This document shows, one piece after another, positions 1,049 through 12,466 of a DNA stretch of 12,466 nt. The number at the start of each line of letters is the position of its first letter. Within the stretch, counting starts at the first letter, position 1. The stretch is from Betaproteobacteria bacterium (GTDB taxonomy: Bacteria > Pseudomonadota > Gammaproteobacteria > Burkholderiales > CANMPU01). The position numbers and the translations under genes were made by a program. Under the pieces are notes generated by a model. That model worked only from the letters and a program-made list of their open reading frames with translations. It had not been told where the DNA came from and did no database searches. The DNA is taken from NCBI GenBank assembly GCA_947499755.1, contig CANMPU010000008.1:1-12466 (forward strand). Direction: 5' to 3'.

Positions 1049-1912
1049 CTATTTTCCTTTGGGCGAGGCCATGGTTTTCTGGCTAATTAATTGCGCACGC
1101 GCACGTTCAAGTAACATTAGAAGTATTTTTCTGTCTTCGCTGTCCGCAGAAAGCTGATCTTCTACGCGTGTCCAATGATCAATGGCGCCACGATAATCTT
1201 TACTTTGAAATGCCGCCATACCCGCAAGAGAATTGAGTTTGAGATGTTTTGCATCCAGCTTTAGCGCTCCATTAATAATCACTAGCGCCTCCGCTGCTAC
1301 GTTGCCTTCGTTTGCAAGAATGGACGCTTCAGCGTAGTCGGCCGCCACGGCAGTGTCTTGTTTAAGCAGGGCATAGGCCTTAGCGTAGGCTTGCGTCGCT
1401 TGGGGATATTGTTCTAAGACCATGTAGGACTTGCCTAGCATTACCCAACCCTGCGCGTCGTTCGGCTCTTGTTTCAATCTTGTCGCGAGCTTATTAACCA
1501 TGGACTCAATTTGGGTCAACCCGATCTCTTGTTGCTCGAGGTCCGTAGTGTTAGGAAGATGGCCGATCTTCAAATAGATTAACAATGCACATAATGGCAT
1601 TAAGATCACTAGAGAAATGATTAAAACAATGTTGGATGATTGACGCTTGGGCGGTTCAATTTCTGTCGCGTCAGACGATTCAGTAAGTAGCCGCTGGCCT
1701 AACTCATCCCGTGCTTCAATATATTGTGCGTGTTGTAGTACACCTGTCGCCTTATCTACGTCTAATTCGGCCAGCTGTTCTCGATAGAGATCGATATTTG
1801 TCATACCCGCGCGCGTGCTGCTCGAAATTGCACGGGTTCTCAATAAAGGCGTCACGACGAACGCTAGTGCAATAGCGATTAAAACGCTAATTAGTATCCA
1901 AAATAAAGTCAT
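1049..1912 (-). CDS. ccmI: Cytochrome c maturation protein CcmI (CycH), TPR protein
   Basis: CcmI is the apocytochrome c chaperone of the System I heme ligation complex; it holds the C-terminus of unfolded apocytochrome in the periplasm and presents it to CcmF/CcmH. The 287-residue product has the expected plan: TM helix at about 4-24, a cytoplasmic loop with the family-typical DLYREQLAELD (41-51), a second TM at about 94-115, then a periplasmic region of TPR-like helices (about 133-255, for example NDAQGWVMLGKSYMVLEQY) and a short lysine-containing tail. It is shorter than some CcmI proteins, which exceed 400 residues, but both TM segments and the TPR region are present. Its start overlaps the ccmH stop by 4 bases (ATGA, 1909-1912), implying translational coupling. 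It is the last ccm gene; prfB follows. Confidence 0.93.
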   Translation of the reverse strand: MTLFWILISVLIAIALAFVVTPLLRTRAISSSTRAGMTNIDLYREQLAELDVDKATGVLQHAQYIEARDELGQRLLTESSDATEIEPPKRQSSNIVLIISLVILMPLCALLIYLKIGHLPNTTDLEQQEIGLTQIESMVNKLATRLKQEPNDAQGWVMLGKSYMVLEQYPQATQAYAKAYALLKQDTAVAADYAEASILANEGNVAAEALVIINGALKLDAKHLKLNSLAGMAAFQSKDYRGAIDHWTRVEDQLSADSEDRKILLMLLERARAQLISQKTMASPKGK

Positions 1913-2370
1913 CGACGTTCGTTATCAGCGCCTAGCAGTTCAGCGAGTCGGCGTGTATCGTTTTCAGCGAGAGGTACGCCTACCACTTTTTTTGCGCGCT
2001 GTCTTAAATGGACAAACAGGAAAACCAAACCTACGACTAATAATATAAATGGACCAAACCACAGTGCTATTGTTGATACTCGTAGTGCTGGTTTAAAGCG
2101 CACGAATTCGCCGTAACGTTGCACCATGAAATTTACGATCTCCTCGTCACTCATGCCGGCTTTAATTTTATCGCGCATTTCAGCGCGAAGATCTATCGCG
2201 AGATTAGCGTGCGAATCAGCGAGAGATTCATTTTGACAAACCAGGCAACGTAAATCCTGCGCAAGATCCAAGACGTGCTTCTCTAGCACTGCATCGTGGG
2301 CGAATGGTTGTGCTTCCTTTGCGCAAACCTCAAACGCGATTAGCGTTGCGAAAACGAGTATCCACTTCAT
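1909..2370 (-). CDS. ccmH: Cytochrome c maturation protein CcmH (CcmL/CycL type)
   Basis: CcmH is a membrane-anchored periplasmic thiol-disulfide protein that acts on the CXXCH cysteines of apocytochrome c together with CcmG, and is part of the heme ligation complex with CcmF and CcmI. The 153-residue product has a signal peptide (1-17, MKWILVFATLIAFEVCA), the hallmark LRCLVCQN motif with Cys42 and Cys45, the helical region with SLADSHANLAIDLR (49-62), the conserved MVQRYGEFVRFKP stretch (82-94) and one C-terminal TM helix (about 102-121). It is the short form, without the fused TPR domain of Escherichia coli CcmH; that part is the separate ccmI gene here. It overlaps ccmG upstream (2367-2370) and ccmI downstream (1909-1912) by ATGA. 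Confidence 0.95.
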   Translation of the reverse strand: MKWILVFATLIAFEVCAKEAQPFAHDAVLEKHVLDLAQDLRCLVCQNESLADSHANLAIDLRAEMRDKIKAGMSDEEIVNFMVQRYGEFVRFKPALRVSTIALWFGPFILLVVGLVFLFVHLRQRAKKVVGVPLAENDTRRLAELLGADNERR

Positions 2371-2891
2371 TGTTGCAGTTCCGTGATTAACGGAAGGATA
2401 CGATCCTTAAGGCCTTGTGGGGTCATCGGGCCTATTTGTTTATAGCGTATGACTCCTAATCGGTCGATGAGATAGGTTTCAGGAACGCCGTAGACCCCAT
2501 ACTCGATTCCGATTCTACCGTCGCTATCCGAGATCGTCGCCACGTACGGATTTCCTTGGCGCGCTAGCCAATCCAACGCTGCGCCGCGCTGGTCTTTATA
2601 GTTCATTCCGTAAAGAGGCACTTTGCCGCTGCGAGATAATTCCAGTAGCAGTGGATGTTCTTCGGCGCATGACGTGCACCATGAGGCCCACACATTTAGT
2701 AGCCATATTTGCCCTTTGAGGTCAGTTGGCGCAAGACGTTTATTTGGGTCGTCCAGTAATGGTAAATTAAAGCTTGGTGCCGTTTTTCCAACTAAGGGTG
2801 ATGGGATTTCGTGCGGATTCCTTGTTAGACCGATAGCCAAAAAGACGACCAAGATCAGAAACAGAACTACGGGAAAAAGAAATTTATTCAC
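2367..2891 (-). CDS. ccmG: Thiol:disulfide interchange protein CcmG (DsbE)
   Basis: CcmG is a membrane-tethered thioredoxin-fold protein that passes reducing equivalents from DsbD/CcdA-type proteins towards apocytochrome c or CcmH in the periplasm. The 174-residue product has an N-terminal TM anchor (about 4-22), the family segment PSPLVGKTAPSFNLP (30-44), the active site WASWCTSC with Cys72 and Cys75, and the cis-proline loop GVPETYLID (135-143, Pro137). The length is normal for DsbE. The dipeptide between the cysteines is Thr-Ser, whereas CcmG proteins usually have a proline there (for example WCPTC), which may alter the redox potential. It overlaps ccmF by ATGA (2888-2891) and ccmH by ATGA (2367-2370). 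Confidence 0.95.
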   Translation of the reverse strand: MNKFLFPVVLFLILVVFLAIGLTRNPHEIPSPLVGKTAPSFNLPLLDDPNKRLAPTDLKGQIWLLNVWASWCTSCAEEHPLLLELSRSGKVPLYGMNYKDQRGAALDWLARQGNPYVATISDSDGRIGIEYGVYGVPETYLIDRLGVIRYKQIGPMTPQGLKDRILPLITELQQ

Positions 2892-4876
2892 GAACCGTTA
2901 GGGTCAGGGGCGGCTAGTTGAGTAACGACAGCTTGCTTGCGACGTGCGAACCGATAGCGGTGATCGAAGGTCGCGATCAAACCACCCAATGCCATTATGA
3001 AGAACCCGCCCCATATCCATCGTATCAAGGGTTTGTAATAAACGCGCACACTCCAAGCACCACCGTCCAAAGGCTCACCTAAGGAAACGTATAAATCACG
3101 AAAAATTCCGGTATCAATCGCTGCCTCCGTCATCGCCATATCTGAAGTTTGGTAAATTCGTTTCTCTGGGTATAGAACAGACGCCAACACCCCATTGTTG
3201 TAAACATTAAACGATCCTCGGCGTGCTTTGTAGTTGGGCCCGGGTACCTCGCTTACGCCATTAAATTGAAATGCGTATGCGCCGACTGTCACGCGCTCCC
3301 CAATCTCCATGCGTACGTCCTTTTGTGTTTCGTAACCTTTAACAATGGTAACGCCGAGTATAAAAATCGCAACGCCTAGGTGCGCGAATTGCATTCCATA
3401 ATAACTCGCCGGTTGTTTGGCGATGCGCGTCAGAATACTTTTGAATTCACCGAATAGCTGGATACGGTCATTTAGGTTTATTACGCCAGAAAAAATAACC
3501 CAGGTAGCCAACAGCAGGCCGAGCGCAATAAGCGGTCTCCAATTACCAAGTATAAAAGGCAAGACTAACGCGCTAACGATACTAGCGTAAAATGCCCAGC
3601 GCAAACGAACGACCAAATCCGGAACGCTCGCTTTTTTCCAGTGCGCCATTGGACCAATCGCCATCAAAAACACCGCAGGGACGAGTAGTGGGACAAAAAT
3701 CAGGTTAAAGTAGGGTGGGCCTACCGATATTTTCCCTAGGCCTAACACGTCGTGCAGCAGAGGATAAAGTGTGCCAAATAAAACCGATGCCGCAGCAGTA
3801 ATGAGTAATACATTATTGCAGAGTAACAAGGTCTCTCTGGAGACTAAGTCAAACTTGCCTCCCAGACCGATACGCGGCGCGCGCCACGCAAAAAGCAACA
3901 AAGAACTTCCGATAACGCAACTCAGAAACACAAGTATAAACACGCCGCGTTTCGGGTCGGTTGCAAATGCGTGTACTGAAGTCAAAACGCCAGATCTAAC
4001 AAGAAAGGTGCCTAAAAGGCTCAACGAAAATGCAGTAATCGCGAGTAGTACCGTCCAGCTTTTAAAACACCCGCGCTTTTCCGTTACAGCAAGAGAGTGT
4101 ATTAACGCGGTGCCGACCAACCAAGGCATGAACGACGCATTTTCAACTGGATCCCAAAACCACCAGCCGCCCCAACCGAGTTCGTAATACGCCCAACCGC
4201 TACCGAGCATGATTCCTAAAGTGAGAAAAACCCATGCGGCAGTAGTCCATGGTCGCGACCAACGCGCCCAGGTTGCATCAAGACGAGCGCTCAGCAGGGC
4301 GGCAATCGCAAATGCGAACGCGACCGAGAAGCCGACATAGCCCATATAAAGGATAGGCGGGTGTATCACCATGCCAGGGTCTTGCAACAGGGGATTTAAA
4401 TCGTTGCCTTCCAGCGGCGCGGGGAAAAGGCGCTGGAAAGGATTGGATGCAAATAATATAAAGATTAGAAATCCAACACTGATTATTCCCATGACGCCGA
4501 GGACGCGCGCTACAATTTCTTCGGGTAAATGTTGGCTAAAAAGTGTAACAGCGACGCTCCAAACTGAGAGTATCAATACCCAAAGTAGCATCGATCCTTC
4601 GTGGGAACCCCACGTCGCGGCGAAACGATAGGCCAGTGGTAAATGAGAGTTGGAATTTGCCGCTACGTTGAGAACGGAGAAATCGCTATTTACAAATGAG
4701 GTCGTTAAACAAGCAAAGGCGATTGCGACAAAAACAAATTGCCCTTGCGCGATAGGGCGTGCGGTCGCTATCCATGCGGCGTTGCGACGTGCGGCGCCGA
4801 ATAAGGGCAAACTACCCTGCGCCAACGCCAACACCAGGGCAAGAATTAACGCAAAATGACCGATTTCTGGAACCAT
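2888..4876 (-). CDS. ccmF: Cytochrome c heme lyase subunit CcmF
   Basis: CcmF is the large inner-membrane subunit that receives heme from holo-CcmE and attaches it to apocytochrome c. The 662-residue product has the length and many hydrophobic helices of the family. The tryptophan-rich WWD heme-handling segment is at 233-251 (GWGGWWFWDPVENASFMPW). Histidines at 172 (MVIHPPILYMGY), 260, 302 (SVHAFATDP) and 499 (QFAHLG) match the four functionally important CcmF histidines. The C-terminus has the usual periplasmic loop (about 515-615) and a last TM (about 617-636). The start lies 8 bases after the ccmE stop and the end overlaps ccmG by ATGA. It would be the direct partner of the unusual CcmE-OmpA fusion encoded just upstream. 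Confidence 0.97.
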   Translation of the reverse strand: MVPEIGHFALILALVLALAQGSLPLFGAARRNAAWIATARPIAQGQFVFVAIAFACLTTSFVNSDFSVLNVAANSNSHLPLAYRFAATWGSHEGSMLLWVLILSVWSVAVTLFSQHLPEEIVARVLGVMGIISVGFLIFILFASNPFQRLFPAPLEGNDLNPLLQDPGMVIHPPILYMGYVGFSVAFAFAIAALLSARLDATWARWSRPWTTAAWVFLTLGIMLGSGWAYYELGWGGWWFWDPVENASFMPWLVGTALIHSLAVTEKRGCFKSWTVLLAITAFSLSLLGTFLVRSGVLTSVHAFATDPKRGVFILVFLSCVIGSSLLLFAWRAPRIGLGGKFDLVSRETLLLCNNVLLITAAASVLFGTLYPLLHDVLGLGKISVGPPYFNLIFVPLLVPAVFLMAIGPMAHWKKASVPDLVVRLRWAFYASIVSALVLPFILGNWRPLIALGLLLATWVIFSGVINLNDRIQLFGEFKSILTRIAKQPASYYGMQFAHLGVAIFILGVTIVKGYETQKDVRMEIGERVTVGAYAFQFNGVSEVPGPNYKARRGSFNVYNNGVLASVLYPEKRIYQTSDMAMTEAAIDTGIFRDLYVSLGEPLDGGAWSVRVYYKPLIRWIWGGFFIMALGGLIATFDHRYRFARRKQAVVTQLAAPDPNGS

Positions 4877-4884
4877 ACGGGATA

Positions 4885-5727
4885 CTACTGTTCGCCTTCA
4901 ACCGATACTTCTACACGGCGATCGGGCTGCAGGCACTCACTGAGCGCTTTGCCTTTCATGCCCTTGCATTCACTTGGTGTTGTCTTGGGTTCCGATTCCC
5001 CTTTACCGCTTGCCACGATGGGGTTGGCAATGCCCTTACTTTCCAAATAACTTTTAACTGCGTTGGCGCGCCGCTCAGAAAGTTTTTGGTTAAAACGAGT
5101 ACTACTGCGGTAGTCGGGGTGGCCGGTCACCATAATGACTTTGAAATTAACGCCGTCAAGACTTTGGGAGAGGCTATCCAATTTTTCCATGCCTTCTGAT
5201 TTGAGCACAGATTTGTTGGTGTCGAATAATGCATCCGCCGTCAATTCTATTTTTTTCCGGGCCATTTTCGCCGGCGCCTCTTTATTCATTGTGGGTGTGG
5301 ATTGTGACCGTGCCTGTTCCAAAGCGTGTGCCGCTTCTGGCGGCATGTAATTTTCATCGTGCTTAGCTAAAACCTCATCCGCGCGAAATACGCCGTTGGC
5401 CTCCATATGACCTTGCGCGACTACCCCTTTTCCTTCTTTAAATAGATCGGGCAATATCCCAGAATAAACGACGGGTACGCTCTGCGCCATGTCGGTGACG
5501 ACAAAACGCACGCTTAATCCATCTTTCCCGCGTTCTAAGCTGCCTGTGGTCACTAAGCCTCCCACGCGAAAACTACGCCCCAGAGGGGCTTCGTGCGCCG
5601 CGATTTGTGAAGGCGTAAAAAAAAACACCAAGTTATTGCGGAAGGCATTGACCACTAATGCGGTGACCACACCGATGACGGCGAGTCCGCCGACTATAAA
5701 AATCATTTTTTTATGACGTGGTTTCAT
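4885..5727 (-). CDS. ccmE: Heme chaperone CcmE fused to a C-terminal OmpA-like peptidoglycan-binding domain
   Basis: CcmE binds heme covalently in the periplasm and carries it from CcmC/CcmD to CcmF. Residues 1-131 look like a complete CcmE: cytoplasmic basic start and TM anchor (about 8-29), the FFFTPSQI stretch (35-42), the beta-barrel core with RVGGLV (54-59) and the heme motif HDENYMPPE (123-131), with His123 as predicted covalent attachment site and Tyr127 as likely ligand. CcmE normally ends about 20-30 residues later, near 150 in total. Here a polar linker (about 132-158) leads into an OmpA C-terminal domain (about 159-278) with [35 protein letters not shown] and [12 protein letters not shown]. 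Asp205 and Arg220 match in spacing the diaminopimelate-binding pair of OmpA domains. The frame is open throughout. The start overlaps ccmD by 17 bases; ccmF starts 8 bases after the stop. Confidence 0.95.
4894..5253 (-). other. OmpA-like domain within the ccmE fusion
   Basis: Codons of residues about 159-278 encode the extra domain. Visible OmpA-C hallmarks are the first-strand [14 protein letters not shown] (166-179), the signature VTGHPD...[17 protein letters not shown] (200-228), SGKGESEP (240-247), and the closing [14 protein letters not shown] (265-278), which closely resembles the end of enterobacterial OmpA. Cys254 and Cys265 are placed like the disulfide pair of Escherichia coli OmpA. 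The usual GHTD is GHPD here, but the aspartate is kept. Peptidoglycan binding is inferred from the family. Confidence 0.93.
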
Positions 5728-5896
5728 TTTGTTTCGCGTTAGCTAGCGCACGAGCCATATTCAGCCGTCTAAGTAGAGTCCGTTTGCGCAAAACGAGACT
5801 GATCATTTCGACAGAGATCGCAAAAGCGGCGAGCCCGTAAGACCCCCACACGTAAAACGCGTAACCACCCATGTTAAAAAAAGCGTGCCAATTCAT
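5711..5896 (-). CDS. ccmD: Heme exporter protein CcmD
   Basis: CcmD is a small single-TM protein that helps CcmC release holo-CcmE in the CcmABCD complex. With the ATG at 5896-5894 it is 61 residues, starting [22 protein letters not shown], the classic CcmD N-terminus of aromatic residues and a tyrosine (Tyr20). A TM helix spans about 12-32 and is followed by a basic tail ([11 protein letters not shown]). A longer reading frame from 5938 exists, but its first 14 codons lie inside the ccmC gene and do not resemble CcmD. The ATGA overlap with the ccmC stop (5893-5896) supports the shorter start. It overlaps the ccmE start by 17 bases. Confidence 0.93.
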
Positions 5897-6642
5897 TTTA
5901 GCGTTTCCAAAATATCTGTGACCCAGGCGCTGCGGCATTCGCGCTCAAGAATAAGCTGGCGTACGCGAACCAAACTTACGGCAATCGAGTACATCCAGCA
6001 TGCCGCCGCCATAATCAACATGCCAGCAAACATCGTCTGCGCCATGGTTGGTGCCGTGGTCATATTTACGGATGCGCCCTGATGTAAGGTATTCCACCAT
6101 TGCACGGAAAAGTAAACGATAGGAATATTCACTACGCCCACCAATAGGAATACCGCGCCTGCCTTATCACGACGCACGGGATTATCTATGGCGGCTTGCA
6201 ACGAAATGAAGCCTATATAGAGAAACAGTAAGATTAGTTCGGACGTCAACCTGGCATCCCACACCCACCAAGCGCCCCACATCGGCTTACCCCAAAACGA
6301 ACCAGTCCACAGCGCGATAAAGGTAAACATTGCGCCAGTCGGTGCCAACGCCGAAGCCATCATGTGCGAAAGGCGCGTGTTGAATGCTAGCCCCAGAGCA
6401 CAGTACGACGCCATCACCAGATAGATAAACATGGACATCCAGGCCGCTGGAACATGGATGAAAATAATCCGATACGCTTCGCCTTGCTGAAAGTCCGTAG
6501 GGGCAACAAAAAATGAAATGCTCAACCCAAGGCTAAATAGCAATGCGGCGGCAATGGAAAACCATGGCACTAATTTTCCCGCAAGGGGATAAAATGTTAC
6601 CGGCGCCGAGTATTTAAGCCAAATAGATGAGATAGAAGCCAT
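5893..6642 (-). CDS. ccmC: Heme transporter CcmC
   Basis: CcmC presents heme to CcmE in the inner membrane and is required for its covalent loading. The 249-residue product has about six TM helices, the WWD domain at about 117-135 (WGKPMWGAWWVWDARLTSE), and the two conserved heme-ligand histidines His63 (IFIHVPAAWMS) and His187 (WWNTLHQG), offset by three from the Escherichia coli residues. Length is typical. The start at 6642 lies 3 bases after the ccmB stop, and the 3' end overlaps ccmD by ATGA. Confidence 0.97.
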   Translation of the reverse strand: MASISSIWLKYSAPVTFYPLAGKLVPWFSIAAALLFSLGLSISFFVAPTDFQQGEAYRIIFIHVPAAWMSMFIYLVMASYCALGLAFNTRLSHMMASALAPTGAMFTFIALWTGSFWGKPMWGAWWVWDARLTSELILLFLYIGFISLQAAIDNPVRRDKAGAVFLLVGVVNIPIVYFSVQWWNTLHQGASVNMTTAPTMAQTMFAGMLIMAAACWMYSIAVSLVRVRQLILERECRSAWVTDILETLK

Positions 6643-6645
6643 GCT

Positions 6646-7314
6646 TTAGTCTTGTGAGACTCTTAGTGCAGCGGCGATCGCTAACGGACCAAAAAATAAA
6701 GTAAATACAAGAAGCGCGGCCAATAGAGACAAATGCGCTTCCACGCCTTGACCACTTAAACTAGCATCGACCGCACTCGTAGCAAAAATGAGAACGGGCA
6801 TATATAGCGGTAATACTAATAATGCGATTAAGGTGTTCCCACCGCGCAGCCCCAATGTTAACGCAGCACCGATGGCGCCTACCATACCCAAAATCGGCGT
6901 CCCTAAGGCTAACGATATCACGAGTATCCATAAACTGTGGGCGGGCAAGTCAAATTGCAAGCCTAATGCTGGAGCAACCAAAATGATCGGCAGCCCAGAA
7001 ACCAGCCAGTGCGCGAGTATTTTAGCAAGTACCAGCAAAGACAGTGACTGGGGCGCCAATAGAAATTGCTCTAGAGTCCCGTCTTGACAGTCGCTGGAAA
7101 ACAGGCGGTTTAAAGAAAGCAATGAAGTTAACAGAGCCGCAACCCATATAACTCCCGGCGCGATTAAGCGTAATTTATTTATTTCCGGACCCACGCCCAT
7201 TGCGAATAAGCTGGTTATGATCGCAAAAAAGAATAAAGCCGTCAAAATATCTGACCTGCGACGCAGGTAAAGCGTGAGATCTCTGGCAAGCACGGCAAAA
7301 AATACGGAACGCAT
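6646..7314 (-). CDS. ccmB: Heme exporter membrane subunit CcmB
   Basis: CcmB is the membrane subunit that pairs with the ATPase CcmA; the CcmAB unit uses ATP to free heme-loaded CcmE from CcmC/CcmD. The ATG at 7314-7312 gives 222 residues, the normal family length, beginning MRSVFFAVLARDLTLYLRRR. Six hydrophobic segments follow, together with the conserved LLSLNRLFSSDCQDGTLEQ region. An in-frame start at 7482 would add 56 residues but lies within ccmA and gives a non-CcmB, cysteine-rich leader, so it is rejected. An AGGA sequence lies about 11 bases before the chosen start. The gene begins 2 bases after the ccmA stop. Confidence 0.95.
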   Translation of the reverse strand: MRSVFFAVLARDLTLYLRRRSDILTALFFFAIITSLFAMGVGPEINKLRLIAPGVIWVAALLTSLLSLNRLFSSDCQDGTLEQFLLAPQSLSLLVLAKILAHWLVSGLPIILVAPALGLQFDLPAHSLWILVISLALGTPILGMVGAIGAALTLGLRGGNTLIALLVLPLYMPVLIFATSAVDASLSGQGVEAHLSLLAALLVFTLFFGPLAIAAALRVSQD

Positions 7315-7316
7315 GG

Positions 7317-7934
7317 CTAGAGTCCTAATGCCAGACGTTTGAGCGTACCACCCGGAATATCTAGCTCCCGATGAGAAGAGATCACCGCAATACCATTCTG
7401 CGCGAGATGAGCGCCAACAATGGTTCGCAATAGATCGCTTGCAGATGAATCGAGTGCCGCAAAGGGTTCGTCGAGCAACCACAACGTTGCTTTGCTAAGT
7501 AATAGCTTTGCGAGTGCAACGCGTCTTTTTTGTCCCTGAGATAACACGCGGAATGGTAATTGTGCAGCCGCCGTGATCCCAAATCGTTGCAGAGCAGCAC
7601 CAACTTCACTAGAACTTACCGGCGCCGCAGATATTCTTGAACTAACCATTAAATTTTCAAGCGCGCTTAAGTCGTCTTTTTGTGCGTTCAGGTGGCCAAT
7701 ATAAGAGAGCGTTTTTTTATATTCTCCCCCAAGCGCATTGATGGTCACGCCATCCCAAAGAACTTTCCCACTGGTCGGAGGCAGTAGTCCAGTCAATATA
7801 CGTAATAGGCTGGTTTTACCGCACCCATTTTTGCCTTGGACGTGGAGCAGATCGCCGTTTTTAAGGGACAGATTTAGGCGACTGAAGAGGCAATGGTCGC
7901 CACGCACGCACTCAAGATCGATGGCTTGCAGCAT
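7317..7934 (-). CDS. ccmA: Heme exporter ATP-binding subunit CcmA
   Basis: CcmA is the cytoplasmic ATPase of the CcmABCD complex that releases holo-CcmE. The 205-residue product shows Walker A GKNGCGKT (34-41), an ABC signature in the CcmA form LSQGQKRRVALA (131-142), Walker B LWLLDEP (151-157) and the switch histidine in SSHRELD (His188). The LSQGQ form and short length are typical of CcmA rather than other ABC ATPases. Its ATG shares one base with the recJ stop (TAATG), so translation is probably coupled to recJ. No strong Shine-Dalgarno sequence is seen before it. Confidence 0.97.
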   Translation of the reverse strand: MLQAIDLECVRGDHCLFSRLNLSLKNGDLLHVQGKNGCGKTSLLRILTGLLPPTSGKVLWDGVTINALGGEYKKTLSYIGHLNAQKDDLSALENLMVSSRISAAPVSSSEVGAALQRFGITAAAQLPFRVLSQGQKRRVALAKLLLSKATLWLLDEPFAALDSSASDLLRTIVGAHLAQNGIAVISSHRELDIPGGTLKRLALGL

Positions 7935-11086: not shown

Positions 11087-11785
11087 ATGTCTGAAATTAA
11101 CGGTGCGGCTATTTCCTGTTCAAATCTGACTAAATCTTTCCGGCAAGGGAACGCGGAAATTAAAGTCTTAGCTGGCGTCAATCTCGTGGTAAAAAACGGC
11201 GAGCGCGTCGCCATCGTCGGCGCGTCGGGTTCTGGTAAAAGTACCTTGTTGCATTTGCTCGGCGGGTTGGATCGCCCCAATGACGGTGAAGTACGAATTC
11301 GAGGCGAGGATATCTTTGCGCTAGATGAAATACGTAAGTGTTGCCTACGGAACGAAAAGCTTGGTTTTGTCTATCAGTTTCATCATTTGTTACAGGAATT
11401 TTCTGCGCGGGAGAACGTGGCGATGCCACTACTTATTCGCGGAGTAGAAAAAGCGATGGCTTATAGTCAGGCGCAAGAAATATTGGTAAAAGTCGGTTTG
11501 GGGAATAGAGTCGATCATAGGCCAAGTGAACTGTCGGGCGGTGAGCGCAGCCGTGCGGCACTAGCGCGCGCTCTGGTAACGCGGCCAGCCTGTGTGCTAG
11601 CAGATGAACCCACGGGGAATCTAGATCAACATATAGCGCAACAAGTATTCGATCTCATGTTGCAGCTCAATCACGAGTTTGGCATCAGTTTTGTCATTGC
11701 AACGCATGACCCATTAATCGCGAAAAAAACAGACCGTACGCTGAGACTACACAATGGCATGCTTGTGGAAGAAACGCAGCACTAG
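11087..11785 (+). CDS. lolD: Lipoprotein-releasing ABC transporter ATP-binding subunit LolD
   Basis: LolD is the cytoplasmic ATPase that drives lipoprotein release by the Lol transporter. The 232-residue product matches the family length of about 230. It has Walker A GASGSGKS (45-52), the family-typical LLHLLGGLD (54-62), the Q-loop segment [11 protein letters not shown] (92-102, Gln97), ABC signature LSGGE (149-153), Walker [12 protein letters not shown] (170-180) and the switch His207 (ATHD). ATG 11087 is preferred because GGTGAG sits 7 bases upstream as a ribosome-binding site. GTG codons at 11072 and 11075 are in frame and would add 4-5 residues. It follows lolC by 32 bases in the same operon. 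After the signature, SRAALARAL replaces the commoner QRVAIARAL. Its stop codon overlaps that of the convergent Sel1 gene. Confidence 0.96.
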
Positions 11786-12466
11786 TCTTGCGACTGTAGT
11801 TTTTTCAGGCGACTTGCTGCGTAACTGTCTCCCAATGCGGCTGCTTTTTGATACCATTTAATCGCTTCTTCAATATTTTTTTCTACCCCTAAACCATTTT
11901 CGTACATCACACCGAGATTGCTCTGCGCATCTTTTGCGCCTTGTTCTCCTGCTTTTTGGTACCACGTAATTACTTGCGAATAGTTTTTATCGATACTGTT
12001 ACCTTGGAGATACATGCTACCCAAATTAGTTTGCGCACGTACCTCTCCTTGATCTGCCGCCTTGGTATACCACTTCACCGCTTCAGCGCCGTTGCGTTTT
12101 ATCGTACTGTAGGCCCAGCCTAACGCCGTTTGTGCTTCAAGATCGTCCTGCTCAGCAGCTAAACGCAACCACTTTATGGCCTCGTCGGCGTTTTTATGCA
12201 CGCCTTCAACGTAGAGATACATCTGTCCGAGAGCCTTTTGCGCTTTGATATGGCCTTGTTCTCCCGCGCGAGAAAGCCACTCAAGTGCTAGCCCGAGGTC
12301 CGGCTCTGTCCCTTCACCATTTTTATACATGAGAGCAAGATTGAATTGCGCACTCACGAAATTATTTTCTGCGGCCTTGTTAAACCATTCGAGTGCTTTG
12401 CTTAGATCTTGCTCGTCGCCCGTGCCATTTTGATACATAAGAGCAAGCTTGTATTGCGCGATTGCG
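11782..12466 (-). CDS. Sel1-repeat (SLR/TPR-like) protein, N-terminus off window
   Basis: The visible 227 residues consist of six tandem Sel1-like repeats plus a 14-residue tail ([14 protein letters not shown]). Repeats follow the pattern AQxNLGxMYxNGxGVxKNxxEAIKWYxKAAEQGD. Such alpha-solenoid repeats bind partner proteins; family members act in envelope stress, secretion or signalling, so no exact role can be given. The frame stays open to the right edge: codons beyond the ATG at 12438-12436 still encode a repeat start ([14 protein letters not shown]), so that ATG is internal, and the true start with any signal peptide lies outside. The gene is convergent to lolD, with overlapping stop codons at 11782-11785. 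Confidence 0.9.
11827..12465 (-). repeat. Six tandem Sel1-like repeats (coding)
   Basis: Units at the protein level, from N- to C-terminus: 12358-12465, 12250-12357, 12142-12249, 12043-12141, 11935-12042 and 11827-11934. Five units are 36 residues and the fourth is 33, having lost the Asn-Gly-x-Gly loop. The units are clearly related in protein but have diverged in DNA, so this is an old repeat array rather than a recent expansion. Confidence 0.88.

Follow-up and report, generated by a model that had tools for sequence, protein, structure and literature searches.

The ccmE gene of the window, by which we mean the whole 12,466-base stretch of DNA that was analyzed (contig C8 of the draft genome of an uncultured betaproteobacterium, with 1,153,661 bases in 193 contigs, 68.19% complete), is fused in frame to a stretch encoding the C-terminal domain of OmpA (OmpA-C). 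The reading that we favor, at a probability of roughly 0.6, is a recent in-frame duplication of the ompA 3′ end onto ccmE, after which the sole CcmE of the cell would still work and the intact OmpA-C domain would be carried as a passenger. That the insertion is real, all readings other than that of an artefact being taken together, is quite likely.

The fused frame and its genomic setting

The frame lies at 4885..5727 on the reverse strand, as do all other features of the window for which we give coordinates, and comprises 280 codons with no internal stop before a TAG at 4885–4887; the window contains no ambiguous bases (N). Its CcmE part (residues 1–148; 5284..5727; 3′ limit uncertain by about 10 residues) consists of a transmembrane (TM) anchor, a core domain at residues 34–130, and a tail of ordinary length, and carries the heme-binding HxxxY motif as His123 and Tyr127. 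Pfam CcmE (PF03100) matches residues 34–130 with 128.7 bits (E 1.2e-37; curated cut-off 24.6 bits), and the NCBIfam CcmE model NF009729 spans residues 1–146 with a score of 218 against a cut-off of 171. The OmpA part (residues 149–280, 132 codons; 4888..5283) is matched at residues 167–253 by Pfam OmpA (PF00691) with 60 bits (E 2.9e-16; curated cut-off 27.2 bits), and the NCBIfam OmpA models listed for the fusion all fall below their cut-offs. Solved structures matched by the sequence include those of CcmE (8ce8 chain E, E 6.5e-30) and of OmpA C-terminal domains (4erh, E 2.8e-22). An earlier interpretation made from the letters of the DNA (the sequence-only reading) had described a single open frame holding two domains with their key residues, and the fusion is as that reading saw it: the 280 codons run through without a stop, and the Pfam matches together with alignment recover His123 and Tyr127 in one domain and Asp205 and Arg220 in the other. 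The window protein shares the TM anchor, core domain, heme motif, and place in the ccm operon with CcmE, the System I heme chaperone (PF03100; PDB 8ce8 chain E, 1sr3, and 1j6q), but has about 132 extra residues matching OmpA-C where known CcmE ends after a short tail.

The ccm operon is complete around the fusion (ccmA, B, C, D-like, F, G, H, and I), and these flanking genes bear out the earlier description of an ordinary ccm operon with the fusion at the ccmE place. Upstream lie ccmA (7317..7934), named by its place and a general ABC transporter ATPase domain (PF00005), ccmB (6646..7482, a mechanically called frame that begins inside ccmA, with the CcmB profile matching from residue 61 and the true start probably further in), ccmC (5893..6642; Pfam and NCBIfam), and a ccmD-like frame of 61 aa (5711..5896) that overlaps the ccmE start and is named on the basis of sequence and place alone. 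Downstream, 8 bases (4877..4884), presumably the original ccmE–ccmF junction, separate the stop codon of the fusion from the ATG of ccmF (2888..4876; Pfam and NCBIfam), which is followed by a gene for a thioredoxin-like (Redoxin) protein (2367..2891; Pfam) that is ccmG/dsbE by place, then by ccmH (1909..2370; Pfam) and the TPR protein gene ccmI/cycH (1049..1912; Pfam). The operon is flanked by frames that we take, from recognition of their sequences rather than from scores, to be recJ-, lolC-, and lolD-like on one side and prfB on the other; the prfB start (865–949) presumably carries its usual programmed +1 frameshift site (CGG AGG TAT CTT TGA C, 880–865), an ordinary feature. At 11782–12465 a Sel1-repeat protein with six matched stretches is cut by the contig end.

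We did not find a second ccmE in the 68.19% of the genome represented in the draft, and the fusion is the single CcmE found there, as had been supposed when it was called probably the only CcmE for this cluster. Cytochrome c domains were matched six times on four contigs of the genome, with CXXCH in the frames there, which suggests that the cell depends on a functional Ccm system. In a tree of CcmC, CcmE, and CcmF built from 66 of 80 loci, the window belongs to a clade that also holds Nitrosospira, Nitrosovibrio, Nitrosomonas, Gallionella, uncultured Nitrosomonadales, and others (support 0.952, with weaker inner nodes); CcmF is at most 70% identical.

Source and junctions of the OmpA part

Over its OmpA part the fusion is identical at 129 of 132 residues to P0002, a standalone OmpA-only protein of 207 aa that comes from an ENA contig, may represent another strain, and whose residues 76–207 align to residues 149–280 of the fusion. 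The BLASTP alignment begins at P0002 residue 76, and OmpA's own N-terminal part with its signal peptide is absent from the fusion. The C-terminal domain and its peptidoglycan-contact residues are shared with betaproteobacterial OmpA (PF00691; P0002 and P0080; PDB 4erh and 2mqe), but the fusion lacks the N-terminal part and would have CcmE as its inner-membrane anchor.

A search of the draft genome with the DNA of the OmpA region gave one other match, an 86-bp identity between 4886..4971 and bases 1–86 of contig C192, which hold the 3′ end of the native ompA. The two copies agree through the second base of the stop codon and diverge at its third, where C192 reads TAA and the window reads TAG, followed by 8 bases and the ccmF start. 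Past the ompA end, C192 has a predicted terminator hairpin (−20.3 kcal/mol, z −4.58) and then a TRZ/ATZ-family hydrolase (665 bits, above cut-off); the contig also encodes UbiG (283 bits, above cut-off) and a HAD-family protein that resembles phosphoglycolate phosphatase but scores below the cut-offs of the best specific phosphatase models (213 against 359; phosphoglycolate phosphatase, 178.8 against 180). Because the hydrolase, ubiG, or both adjoin OmpA in 22 of 29 OmpA loci of relatives (the best P0002 matches at E 1e-28 or better, from 27 genomes; neither is present in the other 7, 2 of which are on truncated stretches), C192 very probably represents the ancestral ompA locus, carrying the native ompA end in its original place, with a second copy of the ompA 3′ part in the window. 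The body of the native ompA was not found in our search of the genome bin, and the two copies are comparable over 86 bp alone; that the whole OmpA half was copied from the cell's own ompA is, beyond those 86 bp, something that we infer through P0002. Given the 86-bp identity to C192 and the 129 of 132 residues shared with P0002, the OmpA half looks like a recent copy rather than an old part of a CcmE family. We also looked for an 86-bp assembler overlap recurring at contig ends and found none at the three ends tested, a result without bearing on the fusion. The only other OmpA-family profile match in the bin, on contig C116, we take, again by recognition from sequence, to be a Pal-like lipoprotein beside TolB-like and YbgF/CpoB-like frames.

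The CcmE side of the junction can be read against the nearest CcmE, P0241, which is identical to the fusion at 95 of 110 residues (38–147) and whose C terminus ...HALEQAQAQSTTTLK (...STTTLK) falls where the window reads ...STPTMN and then passes into OmpA (KEAPAKMA, as in P0002). Because P0241 ends where the OmpA part begins, the CcmE of the window appears complete, with the ompA 3′ copy seemingly inserted at its stop codon. The C-terminal part alone of P0241 was used for this comparison; its first 61 residues, in place of the TM anchor, cannot be aligned with CcmE, and the record (an ENA contig of 695 bases) is probably a chimera or a frameshifted short contig. The 5′ junction is not exact, a laxer alignment starting the OmpA similarity about 10 residues earlier, at 5313, and the simplest inference from the alignments is that about 132 codons (396 bp) entered at the stop codon of ccmE, costing CcmE few residues or none. 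This insert would not include the ompA terminator, from which a polar effect on ccmF–I would be expected. A CAG-TAG ending shared by ccmE and ompA was considered as the cause of the 3′ breakpoint and set aside, since only 5 of 173 loci have it and the last residue of P0241 is Lys.

At least the last part of the OmpA half is repeated in the genome, C192 begins inside that repeat, the draft is fragmented and incomplete, and the fusion has been seen in one genome only, all of which would suit a chimeric assembly or amplification artefact in which the ompA 3′ end was wrongly spliced between ccmE and ccmF; the unalignable start of P0241 indicates that data of this kind do include short contigs with chimeras or frameshifts. 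Such an artefact would nevertheless require a false join where CcmE naturally ends and a second at the third base of the ompA stop codon, both at gene boundaries, with the frame preserved and ccmF starting 8 bases further on. Graph assemblers join no sequences that lack shared or spanning k-mers. The identical fusion protein (P0001) is also listed on a contig of 25,474 bases, longer than the window contig (12,466 bases) and apparently from a second assembly, although both could rest on the same reads. Three residues separate the fused half from P0002, and a spliced native gene would carry them only if they are also present in this cell's own ompA. We regard an artefact as rather unlikely.

Peptidoglycan-contact residues and a possible wall tether

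The OmpA part has Asp205, Asn213, Leu216, Ser217, Arg220, and Ala221, and the Asp, Asn, Leu, and Arg expected at +0, +8, +11, and +15 are thus all present. The diaminopimelate site of TagL has the same spacing (Asp486, Asn494, Leu497, and Arg501), and two further residues important in that site are matched by Ser217 and Ala221, as described in parts of PMC8253398; Asp271 and Arg286 of Acinetobacter OmpA are likewise 15 residues apart in sections of PMC5974059 and PMC6572160. Among 119 aligned OmpA relatives, which are the best P0002 matches and not a broad sample, Asp205, Asn213, Leu216, Ser217, and Arg220 are invariant and Ala221 is present in 118. Pro204, next to Asp205, is unusual, the position being Ala or Thr in all 119. 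We had considered Pro204 and Arg157 as signs of decay of the copy and dropped them, the OmpA copy and P0002 having one private residue each in 116 columns (residues 160–275). This absence of decay fits a recent origin and is silent on selection.

The fusion might have been kept because it holds the heme chaperone at the peptidoglycan, as MotB and TagL hold complexes. The TagL-like spacing of the four contact residues and their invariance among the relatives, the periplasmic location that the OmpA-C domain would have, and the lack of decay relative to P0002 are consistent with such a tether, and MotB, TagL, and specialized TssL, like the fusion, combine an inner-membrane anchor with a periplasmic OmpA-C domain (parts of PMC8253398, in which MotB is named). 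Those proteins anchor large machines, however, whereas here the OmpA-C domain is joined to a mobile heme chaperone, in a fusion that looks recent. Sections of PMC10457321 describe E. coli CcmE as a mobile chaperone linking CcmABCD and CcmFHI, and a firm tether would hinder such movement. Pro204 departs from all 119 relatives right beside Asp205, and because the OmpA copy looks recent and was found once, its intactness needs no selection. We consider it improbable that the fusion was retained as a functional tether, and a just-acquired, wall-pinned heme chaperone, made by copying the ompA end onto the sole ccmE, is likewise improbable. The sequence-only reading had gone further and suggested that such a CcmE could couple cytochrome maturation to wall growth. 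An established type of CcmE with that role is not supported: the OmpA part appears to be a young copy, seen in one genome only, and offers no argument from age or selection.

Occurrence of the fusion and its probable origin

The length of the protein after position 132 sets the window apart among 174 ccmE loci (the window and 173 others, some of which share a genome; loci picked for long stop-to-stop frames are included): 148 residues follow in the window and at most 51 in the others, the median of all 174 being 21, and none of the 173 other loci has a match to the OmpA half. In a search of 399 genomes of the order, the own genome included, 268 gave some match at E 1e-25, and no listed match except the window spans both halves; of the rows listed for other genomes, 20 have frames of at least 230 aa, and 19 of these, all but that of G329, were examined. 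The PF03100 profile detected CcmE in 133 of 200 genomes of the phylum, where the 14 above-cut-off rows from other genomes with frames of at least 230 aa were examined and none is a fusion; frames below 230 aa hardly leave room for both domains. Searching 60 relatives with P0001 gave no other fusion among the matches listed, and none of these relatives, the own genome apart, is of the host's family. Across about 5.8 billion proteins, P0001 alone has both Pfam domains among the best 120 of the 8000, 2665, and 8000 candidates scored. L082, which matched P0001 residues 1–215, turned out to be a plain CcmE followed by a stop. A literature search on C-terminal extensions and fusions of CcmE, judged by the titles and abstract openings of the papers listed, brought up no CcmE–OmpA fusion, and there is none in the sections used of PMC3601427, whose table has a Cys variant of CcmE only, or of PMC3884852. 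The sequence-only reading, which knew of no described CcmE of this form, had proposed a database search for proteins combining CcmE with OmpA-C; among the matches listed the fusion stands alone, with no counterpart in the 173 other loci and no second lineage that would make it a conserved family. That it nonetheless represents an old CcmE–OmpA family, widespread but so far unsampled, is very improbable, for although database coverage of its kin is thin (the nearest full-length CcmE among the matches listed in the protein database search is 77% identical) and the 60 relatives drawn include none from the host's family, the 86 bp identical to the native ompA end, the near identity to P0002, and the lack of any other fusion in these searches argue against it.

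In the recent duplication that we favor, a rearrangement would have copied approximately the last 132 codons of ompA, through the stop codon and without the terminator, into the end of ccmE, with the frame kept and apparently no CcmE residue lost; template switching or another form of illegitimate recombination is the probable route. The 280-aa product would insert into the membrane by the N-terminal anchor of CcmE and bind heme on His123 as usual, and the intact OmpA-C domain would trail in the periplasm, where OmpA-C normally works. According to sections of PMC6204919, the chain of E. coli CcmE becomes flexible at about residue 128, and soluble CcmE constructs tagged at the C terminus can take up heme in vitro, so a C-terminal passenger on CcmE should be tolerated. 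An alanine inserted near the heme histidine of CcmE abolishes function, according to parts of PMC3601427; in the fusion, this histidine lies far from the CcmE/OmpA junction. As the only CcmE found, the fusion protein most likely still serves the c-type cytochromes of the cell, and its OmpA domain is most likely a tolerated and presumably near-neutral passenger, which may bind peptidoglycan weakly or transiently.

Domain fusions in draft genomes call for a search for a further copy of the donor segment. If real, the present case is a very young gene fusion, in which the donor end can be recognized at its own locus and the recipient is apparently intact, and it would be a clear example of how a new domain architecture can begin. 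It would also provide a natural construct with which to ask whether CcmE tolerates, or uses, a peptidoglycan anchor and, if the protein is wall-pinned, a natural test of the need for CcmE to move freely between CcmABCD and CcmFHI.
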